A stretch of 64,000 nt of DNA from Streptomyces sp. NBC_00878 (GTDB lineage: Bacteria; Actinomycetota; Actinomycetes; Streptomycetales; Streptomycetaceae), in assembly GCF_026341515.1 (NCBI RefSeq), contig NZ_JAPEOK010000001.1, positions 7,378,001 through 7,442,000 of the forward strand, written 5' to 3'. The notes under the pieces are model-generated. The model was not told the origin of the DNA. It saw only the letters and a program-made list of their open reading frames with translations, and did not search any database. Made by a program: the position numbers and the translations under genes. Of the stretch, positions 1 to 41,520 are shown piece after piece. Each line of letters opens with the position of its first letter. Within the stretch, counting starts at the first letter, position 1.

Positions 1-1595
1 CGGATGCGCGGCTTGCCCGCCTCGGCGGCGGCCTCCAGGGCCTCGATCAGCTGGGGCAGCCGCAGGAACGTGGCGTTGCCCGCCATGACGACCTTGGCGG
101 TGTCCTCCTCCAGGTGCTGCTTGATGACGGTCTGCGACATGCGAAGGGCCGCGAGGACGATGCCGGCGGCCAGGCCGAAGAGGACGCCTTCGAGGAGCGC
201 GGTCGCCACGATGACCAGCGTGGTGAGGGTCATCACCGCGAACTCGCCCCGGTCCTGGCGCCACATCTTCGGGAACTCCTCGGGGGCGAAGAGCTTCCAG
301 CCGCTGTGGACGAGGACGCCCGCGAGGACGGCGATCGGGATCAGGGCGAGGACCTGGGGCAGGAGCAGCGCGAAGGCCAGCAGCCACAGGCCGTGCAGCG
401 TACGGGACAGGCGGGTCTTGGCGCCCGCCTGGACGTTCGCGGAACTGCGGGCCACGACCGCAGTGATGGGCAGCGCGCCGAGGAGGCCCGCCACGGTGTT
501 TCCGGCGCCCTGGGCGATGAGTTCGGGGTTGTAGCGGGTGCGCGGGCCGCTGTGCATACGGTCCACTGCGGCGGCCGTGAACAGGCTCTCCGCCGAGGCG
601 ATCACCGTGAAGGTGAGGATGGCGGTGATGATCCCGACGTCGGCGAGTCCCGCGAACTCGGCCGGGCCGGGGACGTCCACGGACGCGAGCAGATTGCCCA
701 CCTGGAGCGTCTTCACGTCCACGCCCGGCAGCGAGGCGACCGCGATACCGATCCCGACGGCCACGAGCGCGGCCGGGACCTTCTTCACCGGGCCCGGCAT
801 CTTCTTCCACAGGAAGCTGAGCGCGATGGTGGCGATGCCGAGTCCTGCGGCGATCAGCGCCTGGGGGTTGGCGGAGGTGTCGGCGATCAGACCGGGGAGG
901 CCCGCCATGTTCTCGATCGGCGTGCCCGGGGCCTTGGAGTCGGACATCGGGTACAACTGGCTGAACATCAGCGGCAGTCCGATGCCCGCGAGCATGCCCT
1001 GGACGACGGCCAGCGAGATCGCCTGGAAGATCCGGCCGAGGCGGACCAGGCCCAGGACGATCTGCAGGATGCCCGAGCCGAGGACGATCACGCCGAGCAT
1101 GGCGACGCCGTACTCGACGACGGTCTCCGCCACGAGGGCCGCCAACCCGGCCGCCGGACCGCTGACTTGGAGGGTGCTGCCGCGCGCGGCGCCGACCACC
1201 AGGCCGCCGATGACACCGGAGATGATGCCCAACTCGGCGGGGACACCGGAGGCGACGGCCACGCCGATGCACAGGGGGAGCGCGACGAGGAAGACGACGA
1301 GGGAGGCGGTGATCTCGGTCGCGAGGTCGGCCTTCGGCCCCTTGGTGCTCTTGCTGGTTCCGGCGGTCTTGTTCGTCCTTGCGGTCCTTGCGGTCCTGGC
1401 GGTCTTGGTCGGCGGGGTGGCGCCCGTCGAAGTGGCTGCCGATGTGGCTGCCGAAGTGGGGGCCGAAGTGGGGGCCGGCGGGGAGATGTCCGGGGCGTAG
1501 GCGGGTGCGGTCGGGGCGGGGAAGTCCGGGACCGGCGGGGCGTCCGGCATCCTGGCGTGCGCCGGTACGCGTCCGCGTGCGTGCAGCCCGCTCAT
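1..1595 (-). CDS. SulP-family anion transporter (partial, C-terminus outside window)
   Basis: Membrane permease of the SulP family, here probably for bicarbonate or sulfate because it sits in one transcript with a carbonic anhydrase. Reading from the ATG at 1595, the first 85 or so residues are an unusual Ala/Thr/Pro/Lys tail with short repeats (PTSAPTSAATS, TARTARTART). The first membrane segment follows, with the family-typical stretch ASLVVFLVALPLCIGVAVAS. The rest, to base 1, is a string of hydrophobic segments; the C-terminus, where a STAS domain would be expected, lies outside the window. The start overlaps the carbonic anhydrase stop as ATGA, which indicates translational coupling. Substrate is inferred from context only. 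Confidence 0.85.
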   Translation of the reverse strand, partial: MSGLHARGRVPAHARMPDAPPVPDFPAPTAPAYAPDISPPAPTSAPTSAATSAATSTGATPPTKTARTARTARTNKTAGTSKSTKGPKADLATEITASLVVFLVALPLCIGVAVASGVPAELGIISGVIGGLVVGAARGSTLQVSGPAAGLAALVAETVVEYGVAMLGVIVLGSGILQIVLGLVRLGRIFQAISLAVVQGMLAGIGLPLMFSQLYPMSDSKAPGTPIENMAGLPGLIADTSANPQALIAAGLGIATIALSFLWKKMPGPVKKVPAALVAVGIGIAVASLPGVDVKTLQVGNLLASVDVPGPAEFAGLADVGIITAILTFTVIASAESLFTAAAVDRMHSGPRTRYNPELIAQGAGNTVAGLLGALPITAVVARSSANVQAGAKTRLSRTLHGLWLLAFALLLPQVLALIPIAVLAGVLVHSGWKLFAPEEFPKMWRQDRGEFAVMTLTTLVIVATALLEGVLFGLAAGIVLAALRMSQTVIKQHLEEDTAKVVMAGNATFLRLPQLIEALEAAAEAGKPRI

Positions 1596-2197
1596 GCGGC
1601 GTGCACCCGGAAGCTGCCGTCCTCGTCCAACTCGTGGACCTGGCCGGTGTCGACCTCGTAGTACCAGCCGTGCAGCCGCAGCCGTCCCGCGTCGAGCCGT
1701 GGCTTGGTCACCGGGTAACTCCGCAGAGCCGCAAGCTGGTTGACGACGTTGAGCTGGGCCACGGCGGGCATCGACGGGTCCTCGAATGCTCCGTCGAGCA
1801 ACGGCGCGAGCTCCGGGCGGGCCAGGTCCAGCCAGGCGTCCACACCGGGCAGCGCGGACAGGTCGTCGCCGGACTTCAGAGCGCCCATCGCGCCGCAGTG
1901 GGAATGGCCGCACACGACGATGTCCTGAACGCCGAGCACCTCCAGTGCGTACTCGATGGTGGCGGCCTCGCCGGAGGCGCCCTGCCGCCCGTGCGGTGGA
2001 ACGATATTGCCCGCGTTCCGCAGCTCGAATATCTCTCCGGGCCGTGCGCCCGTGATCAGGGCGGGTATGACCCGTGAGTCCGAGCAGGTAATGAACAATG
2101 CCTCCGGATATTGGCCTTCGGCCAGTTTCCGGTATTCGCCGCTCTCGAAATCGACGCGCCTCTTGAACGAGCGGGCGCGGTCCAGCAGTGCCTTCAC
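1592..2197 (-). CDS. Beta-class carbonic anhydrase
   Basis: Cytoplasmic zinc enzyme interconverting CO2 and bicarbonate. The 201-residue protein has the beta-class zinc site: C38 with the D40-R42 dyad (ITCSDSR), and H98 and C101 (VCGHSHCGA). It is the first gene of a two-gene transcript; its TGA overlaps the ATG of the SulP transporter. A transporter next to a carbonic anhydrase is a known bicarbonate-supply arrangement, so the pair probably feeds carboxylation reactions or buffers pH. Length is normal for the bacterial family. Confidence 0.93.
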   Translation of the reverse strand: MKALLDRARSFKRRVDFESGEYRKLAEGQYPEALFITCSDSRVIPALITGARPGEIFELRNAGNIVPPHGRQGASGEAATIEYALEVLGVQDIVVCGHSHCGAMGALKSGDDLSALPGVDAWLDLARPELAPLLDGAFEDPSMPAVAQLNVVNQLAALRSYPVTKPRLDAGRLRLHGWYYEVDTGQVHELDEDGSFRVHAA

Positions 2198-2482
2198 GGT
2201 TCCTCCCGGCAGGGGGTTCGACCAGGGCTTTCCCGTCGTGCTCTCACCGTAGAGGGGCTACTGCCAGGCGAAGGTTAAGAGAACACTAGAGCAGGGCCAG
2301 GGATGGCCCATATTTCGTCCCGGCGGCCTGAATCCTCGTCGCCTACAAGCCATCCAGGGGCGGTTTTGAGCGGCCGGTCACATTGCCTTGGGTATAGGAG
2401 ACGTGCCTATGACTGCTCTTGTAGCGTGTGCCCTCCACGGCACGGAATTCGTGCTGTCCGGATTCATGGGGAGACAGGGCGT

Positions 2483-4636
2483 ATGGGCGTACGAGTGCTG
2501 CTCATCGAGGACGACGAGACGATCGCCGAGCCGCTCGCCGAGGGTCTGGGTCACTTCGGGCTGACGGTCGACCACGTCTCGACCGGGGCCGCCGGGCTGA
2601 GAGGGCCGTACGGCGATGTCGTCCTGCTCGACCTGGGGTTGCCCGACATGGACGGCATCGACGTCTGCCGTGGGATCCGGCAGTACTCCGACGTGCCCGT
2701 CATCATCCTCAGCGCGCGCGGCGAGGAGGCCGACCGCGTCCTGGGTCTGGAACTCGGCGCCGACGACTACCTGGCGAAGCCCTTCAGCCTGCGTGAACTG
2801 GTGGCCCGGATCAGGGCGGTCACGCGCCGTACCCAGCCGGGCCGCGGCCTGCAACAGGGCCTGCAACAGGGCCTGACGGAGGGTGAGTTCATGGCGACGC
2901 CGCCCGGTGGGACACCTGTGGTGGGCCCGTTCGGTGCGGGTCCGCTCGGCACGGGCGCGTTCGGAATGGGTCCGCTCGGATCGGGTCCGATCGGTACGGG
3001 GACCCTCGGCTCGGGTCCGATCGGTACGGGTCCGATCGGCACAGGGACCCTTGGTGCGGGCGTGCGGGTGACCGGCCTGCTCGGTGACGGGTCGACCACC
3101 GCCGGGTCGCTCGGTGCCGGGTCTGCGGATTCCGGCCCTTCGGATTCCGGCCCTTCGGGCGTCGGCTCTTCGGGAGTTGGCCCTTCGGGCGTCGGCTCTT
3201 CGGGCGTCGGCTCTTCGGGCGTCGGGCCTTCGGGTGTGGGGCCTTCGGGTGTGGGGCCTTCGGGTGTCGGGCCTTCGGGTGTCGGCTCGTCCGACTGGCG
3301 GTCTCGTTCCGAGGGGGCGTACGAGTCGGCGTCCTCGCCGAGTGCCGGATCCTCCGCCGCCCGGCTTCGCGCCGCGGAACCGCGGGACGAGAAGCCGTTC
3401 AGGGGCGAGTCGTTCAGCGCCGAGCCGTTCGCGGGTGAGTCGTTCTCCGCGGGGCCGGACACGGCTGGGCGCGACACCGCGCGGCGGGACGCCGCAGGGT
3501 GGGGTGGTTCCGGGCGAGGCGGCTCCGGGCGGGGCAAATCCCGGCGGGGCATTGGCAGTCGGGGCATTGCCGGTTCGGACGAACCGGGGCCGGCTGTCGC
3601 GGGGGCGGATGCCACATCGCCCGCGCGGCCGTCGTACGACCGGTTCGACGGCACCGGCGCACGGTCTTTGTACGACCCGTCCGACGGCATCCGCACGCCG
3701 TCTTCGTACGACCCCACCGACGGCAACGGCACGCCGTCTTCGTACGACCCGTCCGCAGCGACTCGCACGCCGGACCCGTACGACTCCGCCGACTCCGGCG
3801 AGTCCGCCGGGCGCACCCGCGCATCGACCTCGTACGAACTTCCCGGAGACACCCGGGCCGTCGACCCGTACGACCTGTCGTCCGGCGCCGCCCGTTCCTC
3901 CGGCCCGTACGACTCCTACGACCAGCCGTCCGGTGTTGGACCTTCCGGTATGGGGCGGCGCTTCGAGGAGTCCTCGCGTTCCTTCGACGCCGGGCCGGCC
4001 TTCGAGTTCGCGCCGCCGGTCCCGGCCGGGCGGCCGCGGCGGGAGCCGTCGGCGGGGCTTGCCGAGAGCGCACCTGATGCCGAGCCGGGGGCGGAGTCGG
4101 CCGCCGAGGAGCCGTCCGCCCCCGGCCCCCTCGTCGTCGACCGCCGCACCCGGCAGGTCTGGGTGGGTGACGCACCGGTCTCGCTGACGCCGAAGGAGTT
4201 CGAACTGCTCGCGCTGCTCACCGAGGACCCCGGAGCGGTCTACTCGCGGCAGCAGATCCTGGACCGGGTGTGGGACCCGCACTACCAGGGACCGACCAAG
4301 ACGCTGGACGTCCATGTCGCCACGCTGCGAAGGAAGTTGGGGAACTCGGCGTGGATCCAGACCCTGCGCGGGGTCGGATTCAGACTCGCCGTGCAGAACC
4401 GGCCGCCCTCGGCGGGCGGAACCGTGAGTGGGGCGACGGGCGGCTCGTACGGGGAGCAGCCCGGCAGACGGAACGACTCATCCGGCACGCCCGGCACGCC
4501 CGGCACGCCCGGCACGCCCGGCACGCCCGGCTCGTACGGATCGTTCGAGTCGTTCGAGTCGTTCGGGTCGAGTGGCGCGCACGACGACCTTCCGGGCGGC
4601 GGATCCCAAGGAGCCCGGCCGGCGGCCTTCCGGTGA
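2483..4636 (+). CDS. OmpR-family response regulator with a giant repetitive linker
   Basis: DNA-binding response regulator of the two-component system completed by the next gene. Receiver domain at residues 1-118: acidic pocket E9/D10/D11, phospho-acceptor D50 (VVLLDLGLPD), K99 (YLAKPF). Winged-helix domain at about 545-640 (SLTPKEFELLALL, then the recognition segment TLDVHVATLRRKLG). Family members are about 220-240 residues; this one is 717. The extra is a low-complexity linker of about 425 residues with three repeat zones: G-x-G-P-I/L units (2930-3060), pentapeptide SGVGP/S units (3160-3290), and degenerate SYDP-type units (3630-3930). A C-terminal tail adds a PGT tripeptide run (4486-4530). 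Start chosen at ATG 2483 because the receiver fold begins there. Its stop overlaps the kinase start as GTGA. Confidence 0.88.
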   Translation: MGVRVLLIEDDETIAEPLAEGLGHFGLTVDHVSTGAAGLRGPYGDVVLLDLGLPDMDGIDVCRGIRQYSDVPVIILSARGEEADRVLGLELGADDYLAKPFSLRELVARIRAVTRRTQPGRGLQQGLQQGLTEGEFMATPPGGTPVVGPFGAGPLGTGAFGMGPLGSGPIGTGTLGSGPIGTGPIGTGTLGAGVRVTGLLGDGSTTAGSLGAGSADSGPSDSGPSGVGSSGVGPSGVGSSGVGSSGVGPSGVGPSGVGPSGVGPSGVGSSDWRSRSEGAYESASSPSAGSSAARLRAAEPRDEKPFRGESFSAEPFAGESFSAGPDTAGRDTARRDAAGWGGSGRGGSGRGKSRRGIGSRGIAGSDEPGPAVAGADATSPARPSYDRFDGTGARSLYDPSDGIRTPSSYDPTDGNGTPSSYDPSAATRTPDPYDSADSGESAGRTRASTSYELPGDTRAVDPYDLSSGAARSSGPYDSYDQPSGVGPSGMGRRFEESSRSFDAGPAFEFAPPVPAGRPRREPSAGLAESAPDAEPGAESAAEEPSAPGPLVVDRRTRQVWVGDAPVSLTPKEFELLALLTEDPGAVYSRQQILDRVWDPHYQGPTKTLDVHVATLRRKLGNSAWIQTLRGVGFRLAVQNRPPSAGGTVSGATGGSYGEQPGRRNDSSGTPGTPGTPGTPGTPGSYGSFESFESFGSSGAHDDLPGGGSQGARPAAFR

Positions 4637-6105
4637 CGCGTCGGCTCCTGCTCAGTTACCTGAGCCTCGCCGTGTTGCTCCTGCTCTGCCTGGAGATCCC
4701 GTTGGGCTTCGTCTACTCCCGCGGCGAGCGCGAGCGGGTCACCAACCTGGCGAAGGAGGAGGCGGAGTCGGTCTCCGCGTACGCGTCGCTGGCCCTCTCC
4801 ATGGGCGGCCGCGCGGGACGGGACCTGCCCGGCAGGGTGAGCCGCTGCGCGGACCGCATCGACGGCAAGGTGGTGGTCGTCGACCGTTCCGGCGCGTTGG
4901 TCACCAGTTCGCACACCCTGTCGGCGGCGGAGACGCAGGGCCTCGCCACCCGTCCCGGGATCGCGGCGGCGCTGCGGGGAGCGGCCACGCAGGACGTCCG
5001 TACCTCCACCATCGGCGGCGTCCAGTACCTGTCGGTCGCGGCCCCGATCGCGCAGGGCTCGTACGAACAGGGCGCCGTGTGGATCACGTTGCCCACGCGG
5101 ATGGTGCAGGCCCGGGTGCACCATGTCTGGCTGCTGCTGGCGCTCGGCGGGCTCGCGGCCCTCACCGCCGTCGCGGTCATCGGCTTCGCCATCGCCCGCT
5201 GGACCGGCCGCCCCATCCGTGAACTGGAGCGCGCCACGCACGAGTTGGCCGAGGGCGGCCCGTCCACACCGGTGGCGATCACCAAGGGACCGCCGGAGGT
5301 ACGGAGCCTCGCGGCCACCTTCAACCGCACCGCGGCCCGCCTCGAACACCTCCTCGCCTCCCAGCGCGCCTTCGCGGGCGAGGCCTCGCACCAGCTCAAG
5401 ACGCCCCTCGCCGCGCTGCGACTGCGCCTGGAGAACCTGGAGTCCGACATCGCCCTGCACGCCCGGGGCAACCTGACCGCCGCGATGACCGAGACCGACC
5501 GGCTCGCCAGGATGGTCGAGGGGCTGCTGGCGATGGCCCGGCTCGACGAGAGCGCGGCGGTGCGCGAGCCGGTTGACCTGGACCGGGTCTGCGCGGAGCG
5601 GCACCGGGCCTGGGCGCCGATGTTCGAGCAGTACGGCGTACAGCTCGTGCTGCTCGGCGACTACGGCGGACCGGTCCTCGCCCTGCCCGGCGCGGTCGAG
5701 CAGATCCTGGACAACCTGCTGTCCAACGCACTGCGCGTGGCGCCCCGTCACTCCACGGTGTCCATCGACCTGCGCAGGCCCGAGACCCACGAACGCCGCT
5801 TCCACCACCGCCCGGCGGGCCCGGACCGCGTCGAACTGCACGTCACGGACGAGGGCCCCGGCATGACCGAGGAACAGCGCCGCCGCGCCTTCGACCGCTT
5901 CTGGCGCGCTCCCGACGCGCCGAAGGGCGGTACGGGGCTGGGTCTGGCCCTCGTCCAGCGGCTTGCCCATGCGAGCGGAGGTGACGTCCTGCTCCGTGCC
6001 GGTGCCTCCGGCGGTTTGGACGCGGTGGTCCGGCTGGCGCCGGGCGGTGGTGGCTCGGCGGCTTCCCCGAGACCGTTGGAGAGCGCGGCTCAACGGGTGT
6101 TCTGA
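4633..6105 (+). CDS. Sensor histidine kinase
   Basis: Membrane sensor kinase that should phosphorylate the preceding regulator. The 490-residue protein starts at GTG 4633, overlapping the regulator stop. First membrane segment at residues 4-26, extracytoplasmic loop of about 135 residues, second membrane segment near 163-186, then HAMP. Phospho-acceptor H253 lies in the H-box EASHQLKTPLAAL. ATPase boxes: N-box at about 357 (QILDNLLSNAL), G1 at about 405 (DEGPGM), G2 at about 432 (GGTGLGLALV). All catalytic boxes are intact, so a working kinase is expected. The signal sensed is unknown. Confidence 0.92.
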   Translation: MTRRLLLSYLSLAVLLLLCLEIPLGFVYSRGERERVTNLAKEEAESVSAYASLALSMGGRAGRDLPGRVSRCADRIDGKVVVVDRSGALVTSSHTLSAAETQGLATRPGIAAALRGAATQDVRTSTIGGVQYLSVAAPIAQGSYEQGAVWITLPTRMVQARVHHVWLLLALGGLAALTAVAVIGFAIARWTGRPIRELERATHELAEGGPSTPVAITKGPPEVRSLAATFNRTAARLEHLLASQRAFAGEASHQLKTPLAALRLRLENLESDIALHARGNLTAAMTETDRLARMVEGLLAMARLDESAAVREPVDLDRVCAERHRAWAPMFEQYGVQLVLLGDYGGPVLALPGAVEQILDNLLSNALRVAPRHSTVSIDLRRPETHERRFHHRPAGPDRVELHVTDEGPGMTEEQRRRAFDRFWRAPDAPKGGTGLGLALVQRLAHASGGDVLLRAGASGGLDAVVRLAPGGGGSAASPRPLESAAQRVF

Positions 6106-7125: not shown

Positions 7126-8586
7126 TCAGCGACGCGCGAGGCGTAGGGCCAGGGCGGCGGTGCCGAAGAGGACCGCTGTCACCGCGAGACTCGCCGCGTC
7201 GCCGCCGACGGCGAGCAACAGGGCGAAGACGACGGTCGGCCCGGTCTCCATCGCCGTGTTGTGCACACCGCCCGCGAGCCCGGTCCGCTCCGCGGGCACC
7301 CGGTCGGTGGCCAGCACGGCGGCCCCGGCGAAGGAGGCGGCGACCCCGGCGGCCAGCAGGACGAAGCCGGGAAGAAGCCCGTACGCGTACGGGATGTCAC
7401 CACCGAATCCACCGGAACCACCAAATCCACCGGAACCACCAAATCCACCGGAACCACCAAATCCGCTGAATCCGCCGAATCCCGTGAGCGCGAGCAGCGT
7501 GAGGCCCACCGCACCGACGGCCAGCCCGAAGCCGGTGACGACGGCCGCTCCGTACCGCCCGACGAGCCGCCCCGCCACTCGGCCGGACGCGAGGAGCGCC
7601 ACGGCGAACGGTACGAACGCGGCCGACGTCCGCAACGCCGACCAACCGCGGTCGTCCTGCAGATGGAGCGAGAACACTACGAAGACGGTCGAGGTCCCGG
7701 CCGCGGTCAGCGCGGTGGCGGCGAGCCCGAGCGCGCGCCGCCCGTCGAGCAGGAAGCGCGGCGGCAGCAGCGGATCACGCGCCCGCCGCTCGACCTGGAC
7801 GAACACGACCAGCAGGACGACTCCGGCGGCCAGTGGCCCGAGCACCCGGCCCGATGTCCAGGGCCACGCGTCGGTGAGGACGAGCCCGTAGCTGGCGGAG
7901 GCCAGCCCGGCTGTGGCCAAGAGGGCGCCGGGGACGTCGAGTTGGGGGCGGGCGGGGTGCGCGGACCCGCTGTTCCCGGAGTGCGCTCGGGTCGCCTCGG
8001 GCGGCAGCACCCGGGGCGGCAGCACCCGGGGCGCCAGCGCGAGCGCCGCCACCGTCGCGGCGAGCGGTACGGCGAAGGCCCAACGCCAGGACAAAAGCGC
8101 CGAGATGACGCCGGAGAGCAGATTGCCCGCCGTGGCACCGAGGACCGAAAGCCCGCCCCAGGTCGCCATCGCGCCCCGGTACGCGGCGGGGGAGGGGAAC
8201 ACCGTCCGCAGCACCGCCATCGCGGCCGGCGCGATCAGGGCCGCGCCCGCGCCCTGGGCGAACCGGGCCGCGAGCAGCGTGCCGTAACCGGGAGCGAGCG
8301 GGGCGGCGACCGACGCGACCCCGAACACCAGCAGCCCAGCGGTGAGCGTCCGATGCCCGCCGTACCGGTCGGCGAGCCGCCCCCCGAACAGCAACAGCCC
8401 GGCGAACGTCAGCCCGTACGCCGCACTGAGCAGAATCAACTCCTCGCGCCGCACCCCGAATTCGTCCCCGATCCCCGGCAGCGGCACGGCCACGGCGGCC
8501 AACGTGAAGATCAGCATGACCTGCACGCCACCGAGCAGTACGAACGCGGCTCGGCTGGAGCGGGATGTGATCACGGCAACGGCCAC
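7126..8586 (-). CDS. MFS efflux transporter
   Basis: Drug-efflux-type major facilitator with about 14 hydrophobic segments in 486 residues; GRLADRYGGHRT after the second segment is the family A-motif. GTG start at 8586 is preceded by AGGGGGA. A Gly/Phe insert (GFGGSGGFGGSGGF, bases 7396-7480) sits between two membrane segments near the C-terminal third. It is encoded by an 18-bp tandem repeat and is not a usual part of the family. The gene begins 17 bases from a TetR-type operator (8603-8616) and is followed by the SDR. Confidence 0.9.
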   Translation of the reverse strand: MAVAVITSRSSRAAFVLLGGVQVMLIFTLAAVAVPLPGIGDEFGVRREELILLSAAYGLTFAGLLLFGGRLADRYGGHRTLTAGLLVFGVASVAAPLAPGYGTLLAARFAQGAGAALIAPAAMAVLRTVFPSPAAYRGAMATWGGLSVLGATAGNLLSGVISALLSWRWAFAVPLAATVAALALAPRVLPPRVLPPEATRAHSGNSGSAHPARPQLDVPGALLATAGLASASYGLVLTDAWPWTSGRVLGPLAAGVVLLVVFVQVERRARDPLLPPRFLLDGRRALGLAATALTAAGTSTVFVVFSLHLQDDRGWSALRTSAAFVPFAVALLASGRVAGRLVGRYGAAVVTGFGLAVGAVGLTLLALTGFGGFSGFGGSGGFGGSGGFGGSGGFGGDIPYAYGLLPGFVLLAAGVAASFAGAAVLATDRVPAERTGLAGGVHNTAMETGPTVVFALLLAVGGDAASLAVTAVLFGTAALALRLARR

Positions 8587-16764: not shown

Positions 16765-16792
16765 GTATGCCTCCTCTCTGGATCCGGGCGTC

Positions 16793-16870
16793 TTTGATCC
16801 GCGGCCTCTGATCCGCGGCCTCTGATCCGCGGTCTCTGATCCGCGGTCTCTGATCCGCGGTCTCTGAGCC
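16793..16870. repeat. 14-bp tandem repeat, five units
   Basis: Unit TCTGATCCGCGGYC repeated five times (starts 16793, 16807, 16821, 16835, 16849) plus a partial sixth. It lies between the surface-protein gene and the sortase gene and could fold or vary in copy number. The period is not a multiple of three, unlike the coding repeats in this window. Confidence 0.9.
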
Positions 16871-41340: not shown

Positions 41341-41444
41341 GGCTCCATCCTGAACCGAGGCGCGCACCCGCGCATGTCGGGGATACCCCGGGGTGGCATG
41401 ACCGTGAATTCTGTGCGTGGGCACACCGTTACGAAGAGTGCTCG

Positions 41445-41520
41445 GCGACCACACCTCGGCGACCACTCCTCAGCGACCACTCCTCAGCGATCACTCCTCG
41501 TCGATCATCTCTCGGTGATC
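41445..41520. repeat. 15-bp degenerate tandem repeat
   Basis: Units like CTCCTCAGCGACCACT recur about five times with drift between the phosphatase promoter and the 3' end of the GH36 gene, whose last codons it enters. Confidence 0.7.

Follow-up and report, generated by a model that had tools for sequence, protein, structure and literature searches.

A Streptomyces OmpR-type response regulator with a long, predicted disordered linker that varies widely in length among close relatives

Models of OmpR/PhoB response regulators mostly rest on short linkers and on contacts between the receiver and the DNA-binding domain, and proteins of this family usually bind tandem direct repeats with an 11-bp period and dimerise on phosphorylation through the alpha4-beta5-alpha5 face of the receiver. 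Two studies give linkers of 5-21 residues (PMC8329863) and 5-20 residues (PMC4773095). For example, VanR of Streptomyces coelicolor is, like the protein reported here, an OmpR-type Streptomyces regulator; however, its linker has 11 residues and is well ordered, and it is discussed as letting the DNA-binding domains rearrange (PMC8329863). Long proteins with a receiver and a Trans_reg_C domain are known from the cyanobacterial RcaC type, but in many of those among the matches listed by our database search extra Pfam domains (HPt, GGDEF and others) explain the length, as read from the listing itself. With 120 of 898 matches listed, long disordered linkers may also occur in other families. Compositionally biased bacterial segments like the present one also occur among the low-complexity regions of prokaryotic proteins (PMC6821194), and the main text of that article contains neither the term response regulator nor two-component. 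Linkers of such length were not described in the open-access titles and abstract openings that our literature search covered, subscription papers lying mostly beyond its scope.

The regulator described here is encoded in a stretch of 64,000 nucleotides from Streptomyces sp. NBC_00878 (NZ_JAPEOK010000001.1, positions 7,378,001 to 7,442,000), hereafter the window, and the features of the locus are collected in Table 1. It resembles OmpR/PhoB regulators in its catalytic receiver (Pfam score 77.8 bits against a cut-off of 30.2), which has the acidic pocket, the phospho-acceptor Asp, the Ser/Thr and the Lys of the class, in its Trans_reg_C winged helix (84.6 bits against 26.2), in the overlapping downstream HAMP-HisKA-HATPase gene, whose product is taken as the cognate kinase from gene order, and in a candidate tandem site with an 11-bp period. 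It is unlike them in its linker, which has 430 residues against a published 5-21, and in a long low-complexity tail (PMC8329863, PMC4773095). The best NCBIfam matches were CreB and CseB, at 190.1 and 184.5 bits against equivalog cut-offs of 273 and 350, scores that the linker insertion may lower; the best matches among solved sequences were RegX3 (2oqr) and BaeR (4b09). SCO2165/SCO2166 was considered as the S. coelicolor counterpart and dropped, as a search gave this no support. The start was placed at the ATG at 2483, in agreement with homologs that share the N-terminal MGVRV, and a longer open reading frame from 2303 is disfavoured against it.

Table 1. Features of the regulator locus, with positions counted in the window
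Feature	Position	Strand	Basis
Divergent beta-carbonic anhydrase (Pro_CA), syntenic with the regulator	1592..2197	-	profile match
Candidate tandem operator GAAGGTTA-n3-GAACACTA, 11-bp period	2270..2288	+	conservation upstream
Response regulator CDS, 717 aa: receiver, disordered linker, winged helix, disordered tail	2483..4636	+	profile matches, homolog starts
Receiver domain and landmarks, residues 1-118; Pfam Response_reg 5-111	2483..2836	+	
Low-complexity, predicted disordered linker, residues 119-548, 430 aa	2837..4126	+	between conserved landmarks
Repeat class 1, 15-bp units, GPxGT/S type	2923..3042	+	TRF
Repeat class 2, 15-bp units, PSGVG/SSGVG	3133..3286	+	TRF
Conserved island, ~residues 297-324, PFRGESF..EPFAGESF, kept in several shorter-linker orthologs	3371..3454	+	
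Repeat class 3, 36-bp units, SYDPxDG type	3632..3772	+	TRF
Winged-helix DNA-binding domain, residues 549-645; Pfam Trans_reg_C 565-635	4127..4417	+	
C-terminal low-complexity tail, 72 aa, 9-bp repeat array at 4482-4531	4418..4633	+	
Sensor histidine kinase (HAMP, HisKA, HATPase_c)	4633..6105	+	GTG start overlaps regulator TGA stop (GTGA)

The original prediction, made from the letters of the window and their open reading frames, had placed a disordered linker of about 425 residues at 2930-4118, close to the 2837-4126 and 430 residues measured here, and had divided it into three repeat classes, which the TRF arrays reproduce; of the 717-residue architecture it had described the long repeat linker and had missed the disordered C-terminal tail and the carbonic anhydrase neighbour. 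Among 426 linker residues counted, Gly (90), Ser (67), Ala (47) and Pro (46) prevail. As for disorder, an AlphaFold2 model built with 29 similar rows predicts no secondary structure in the linker, with block pLDDT of 32-42 over residues 121-530 and of 65-92 over the winged helix (residues 541-640), in line with that prediction; low pLDDT alone is weak evidence for disorder, because the receiver was also modelled poorly (41-60) in that run. A folded extra domain within the linker was rejected for lack of any Pfam match and of predicted secondary structure. The linker also stands apart within its own genome. All 76 Trans_reg_C and all 122 receiver matches were paired into 43 same-strand neighbours, one of which was left out because its two matches are out of frame (739.7 codons apart) and hence not one protein. 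Among the 42 in-frame pairs the gap between Pfam edges is 452 residues in the window regulator, the next-largest is 70 and the median is 35.

Relatives were found with the kinase as bait in the named genomes and in 52 of 392 further genomes of the genus that matched at E <= 1e-150; regulators were taken from the open frames upstream of the kinase, and a receiver identity of at least 80% was required. The 87 loci gave 74 distinct proteins, or 75 with that of the window. Broken loci (L035, L058, L147), short contigs (L042, L043, L135) and loci with receiver identity below 80% (including L069, L149, L155 and L156) were dropped before lengths were counted, and L058 was kept in the composition and aromatic-spacing rows. 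Since a few second copies from one genome (L020, L150, L151) are included, the 75 comprise orthologs and close paralogs. Their linkers range from 13 to 430 residues with a median of 60; 13 have at least 100 residues, nine at least 200, and only three have 21 or fewer (72 are longer). Identity to the window protein is 82-100% in the receivers and 73-99% in the DNA-binding domains. The window regulator is the extreme of one Streptomyces group. Measured alike, 27 regulators of non-Streptomyces loci (among L072-L106) have linkers of 10-19 residues. Furthermore, a database search with the receiver gave, among the matches listed (120 of 898), at least 29 long proteins (receiver identity 86-100%), some of them identical to proteins of the kinase-bait loci; 28 of the 29 have a DNA-binding domain, and their linkers span 76-378 residues. 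At least four records whose source assigns them to S. scabiei, again among the matches listed, carry linkers of 217, 220, 252 and 243 residues. A trade-off between linker and tail is contradicted by the positive correlation of their lengths (rho +0.38, n=75).

The linker changes quickly beside domains that hardly change. In ten pairs whose receivers are at least 99% and whose DNA-binding domains are at least 98% identical, linkers differ by 2 to 82 residues. The 118-residue receivers of the window, of L028 (S. phaeochromogenes) and of L108 are 100% identical, with linkers of 430, 396 and 352 residues, and each pair of these three shows 10-13 gap events in the linkers and none in the domains. 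In six long pairs (the three just named, L045/L046, L048/L049 and window/L029) dN/dS was 0.36-0.63 in the linker and 0-0.13 in the domains; in four short-linker pairs it was 0.51-0.87 and 0-0.20, respectively. Such ratios on repeat alignments are rough: linker dS lies above both domain values in nine of the ten pairs, an excess which may reflect misaligned repeats. The statements that the gene is not decaying and that receiver and effector keep their catalytic residues agree with the low domain ratios of the six long-linker pairs and with a 29-row alignment in which E9, D10, D11, D50 and K99 of the receiver are invariant and S77 nearly so. Such conservation of receiver and winged helix is not in itself proof of an active regulator. 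Linker changes fall mostly at third codon positions in all five pairs counted. Between units of the two 15-bp window arrays pN/pS was 0.32 and 0.44, the differences being mainly synonymous, and between units of the 36-bp array it was 0.90, which indicates little constraint. The domains are under strong selection and the linker is under weak selection on composition. Of 157 tandem arrays within the coding sequences of the 75 proteins, 156 have a period that is a multiple of three; outside the regulator gene, where much of the DNA is coding as well, 150 of 181 do. On a 39-row tree from which S. scabiei-type proteins were left out, parsimony gave five changes between long and short linkers (cut at 100 residues), at least three of them forced by starred branches. 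As controls we took two other regulators: L161 changed in length by -6 to +8 residues in 33 genomes, and L158, which has a Gly/Ser-rich linker of its own, by -21 to +10 in 13 genomes. For these controls, length means the span of the alignment and not a measured linker, and 33 of 41 and 13 of 14 rows were kept, rows of 56-62% identity being dropped and five of the 33 containing stops. At the level of sequence, then, the linker is hypervariable in frame and weakly constrained between conserved domains, beside a conserved neighbour and a conserved upstream element.

That neighbour is a carbonic anhydrase gene, relatives of which occur in 39 of the 43 named-genome loci; of the other four, L042 and L043 end before the anhydrase position and L068 and L069 have no match. 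In each of the 37 loci where the distance was measured, the gene is divergent, with its start 206-429 bp upstream of the regulator. Between the two genes, GAAGGTTA-n3-GAACACTA is present as the single exact copy in the 11.1-Mb assembly, with two more copies at two mismatches. Exact GAAGGTTA was found in 62 of the 75 distinct upstream regions, at linkers of 14-430 residues, and was missing from 13, two of which are off by one base. Of the 62, 53 have a looser second half site (rAAnnMYA) 11 bp further along (linkers 14-430) and nine lack it, and the strict form GAAnnCTA is present in 25 (linkers 38-430). A further box of the intergenic region (2198-2482), TCTTGTAGCGTG, occurs in 53 of the 75. 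An 11-bp period is what the tandem sites of OmpR/PhoB proteins usually show, and from position and conservation we infer that the regulator binds this element, which could equally serve a promoter. The probable targets of the regulator are its own operon and the divergent carbonic anhydrase gene. The anhydrase gene and the conserved intergenic boxes suggest a two-component system linked with this enzyme, for which one narrow search of the open-access literature found no paper.

The reading we prefer, with a probability of roughly 55%, is a working regulator whose disordered tether grows in frame and whose length is tolerated and not tuned, with probable control of the anhydrase gene and of its own operon. 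The tether would lengthen and shorten through in-frame tandem duplication of short units; phosphorylation would dimerise the receivers, after which the tethered winged helices would sit head to tail on the 11-bp tandem site. The composition of the tether would be preserved, as would a few islands, and the exact length would not be tuned. A simple chain estimate gives an effective concentration of 0.07-0.3 mM for 430 residues and of about 28-44 mM for 15. A long tether may be tolerated, since it still keeps the local concentration high, so that receiver dimerisation could still bring two winged helices to the tandem site, which would explain why the length can drift. It would also make it unlikely that the protein needs autoinhibition through a tight interface between receiver and winged helix. 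What is new is the length of the linker, its rapid in-frame drift and the near-constancy of its surroundings: within one group of relatives it varies about thirty-fold, and the domains, the neighbour gene and the candidate operator change little. This natural length series offers a direct test of the degree of interdomain coupling that a response regulator requires, and the system also lets the contribution of a disordered chain to the function of a bacterial transcription factor be tested.

The acidic and aromatic bias and the conserved islands suggest that the linker is more than a passive spacer. It might be multivalent, its [DE][SP][FY] and [FY][DE]P motifs clustering the regulator into condensates, as the phase separation raised in the original prediction would have it, or recruiting RNA polymerase or a partner, with repeat number as valency; we regard this as not very likely. 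Linkers of at least 200 residues are 4.4-9.4% aromatic, free of cysteine and, in all but P0031, net acidic, and the linkers are more aromatic and acidic than a low-complexity background (7.5% against 4.0% aromatic), although that background is rough, including some wrong-frame segments and one member of this regulator family. [DE][SP][FY] occurs 63 times in the 13 linkers of at least 100 residues, against a shuffled mean of 7.7 and maximum of 15 (500 shuffles), but motif counts and spacing tests are inflated because repeat units are not independent. Similar motifs occur in expanded C-terminal tails. The island PFRGESFGGEPFAGESF is conserved in several relatives, and four islands (~residues 131-150, 181-200, 297-324 and 490-516) have pN below the rest of the linker in six of six pairs; pS is also lower there in five of six, and the low pN is partly circular because the islands were picked from the alignment for their conservation. 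On the other hand, acidic-aromatic motifs are missing from 23 of 74 relatives, including nine of the 11 linkers below 40 residues, and are therefore not essential to basic function. Prion-like sticker-and-spacer domains have evenly spaced aromatics; in the window linker 979 of 1000 random placements were at least as even, and such an architecture was rejected for it, though in 14 of 53 other rows, where about three were expected by chance, spacing was more even than random at 0.05, and some relatives thus do show it. It also seems rather unlikely that the linker is an activation-domain-like acidic-aromatic region in which repeat number sets multivalent contacts that cluster the protein on DNA or bring in the transcription machinery, and in which signalling gain would evolve by expansion with the domains and the operator near-frozen.

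The original prediction had also raised the possibilities that the repeats vary in length between strains, which the 13-430 residues of the 75 proteins and the S. scabiei-labelled records (217-252) support at the level of relatives, and that the linker tunes the distance between the domains, which has lost ground: drift by tens of residues accompanies identical receivers, and the 11-bp candidate period is kept in the 53 of 62 upstream regions noted above. Linker length tuned adaptively between strains in a contingency-type manner, for domain distance or for DNA-binding gain, is quite improbable. It would fit the very fast length change beside identical receivers, the different lengths among the S. 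scabiei-labelled matches listed and the 9-bp array of the tail, whose units match at 100% (TRF) as if freshly slipping. However, the linker arrays of the window have few identical units (2 of 10, 1 of 9 and 0 of 4 repeat another unit's letters), unlike freshly slipping arrays, the upstream tandem element keeps its period at linkers from 14 to 430 residues in most relatives, and by the chain estimate the effective concentration shifts only slowly beyond ~200 residues.

Long disordered chains are protease-prone, and the linker might be processed or dispensable, the protein being cut or its receiver and DNA-binding domain acting apart. In L035 the frame breaks within the linker, leaving the two domains in separate frames, and P0018 (Streptomyces sp. 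MB09-02B) keeps receiver and linker followed by no recognisable DNA-binding domain. Nevertheless, this is very unlikely: 87 of 90 loci that cover the gene (receiver identity at least 80%, or broken) keep both domains in one open frame, and, because dN/dS is below 1 in most comparisons of units and of orthologs, the linker appears to be translated and kept. In the three exceptions, L035:3399-4501, L058:3612-6080 and L147:3114-3569, the frame is broken in the linker, in the DNA-binding domain and before the linker, respectively, by breaks that may be real or sequencing errors. A sequencing or assembly artefact or a decaying gene is hardly credible, for although repeats are prone to misassembly, the units of the three linker arrays match one another imperfectly (71-87% by TRF), the domains are under strong purifying selection, and comparable linkers of 396 and 352 residues are found in other assemblies of close relatives and one of 378 in another protein record.

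Returning to the in-frame growth of the tether, repeat content within the regulator gene tracks linker length (rho 0.76) and tandem-repeat density in the flanks does not (rho -0.04, n=39), which points to a gene-specific cause and not to slippage-prone genomes. Genome-wide slippage was rejected as the cause on this ground, yet an MFS transporter neighbour and the tail of another regulator also have repeats. The transporter (window 7126-8586, minus strand) has an FGGSGG repeat loop with an array at 7399-7482, and over the aligned part L028 has about 29 residues fewer, which means that repeat growth reaches this neighbour too. The other regulator, an OmpR-type protein of the same genome (L160:122-1000, plus strand), carries a repeat tail of TPSEL units behind its winged helix. 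Two 14-bp tandem arrays elsewhere in the window, at 16775-16867 (6.5 copies) and 41441-41504 (4.6 copies), have a period that is not divisible by three.
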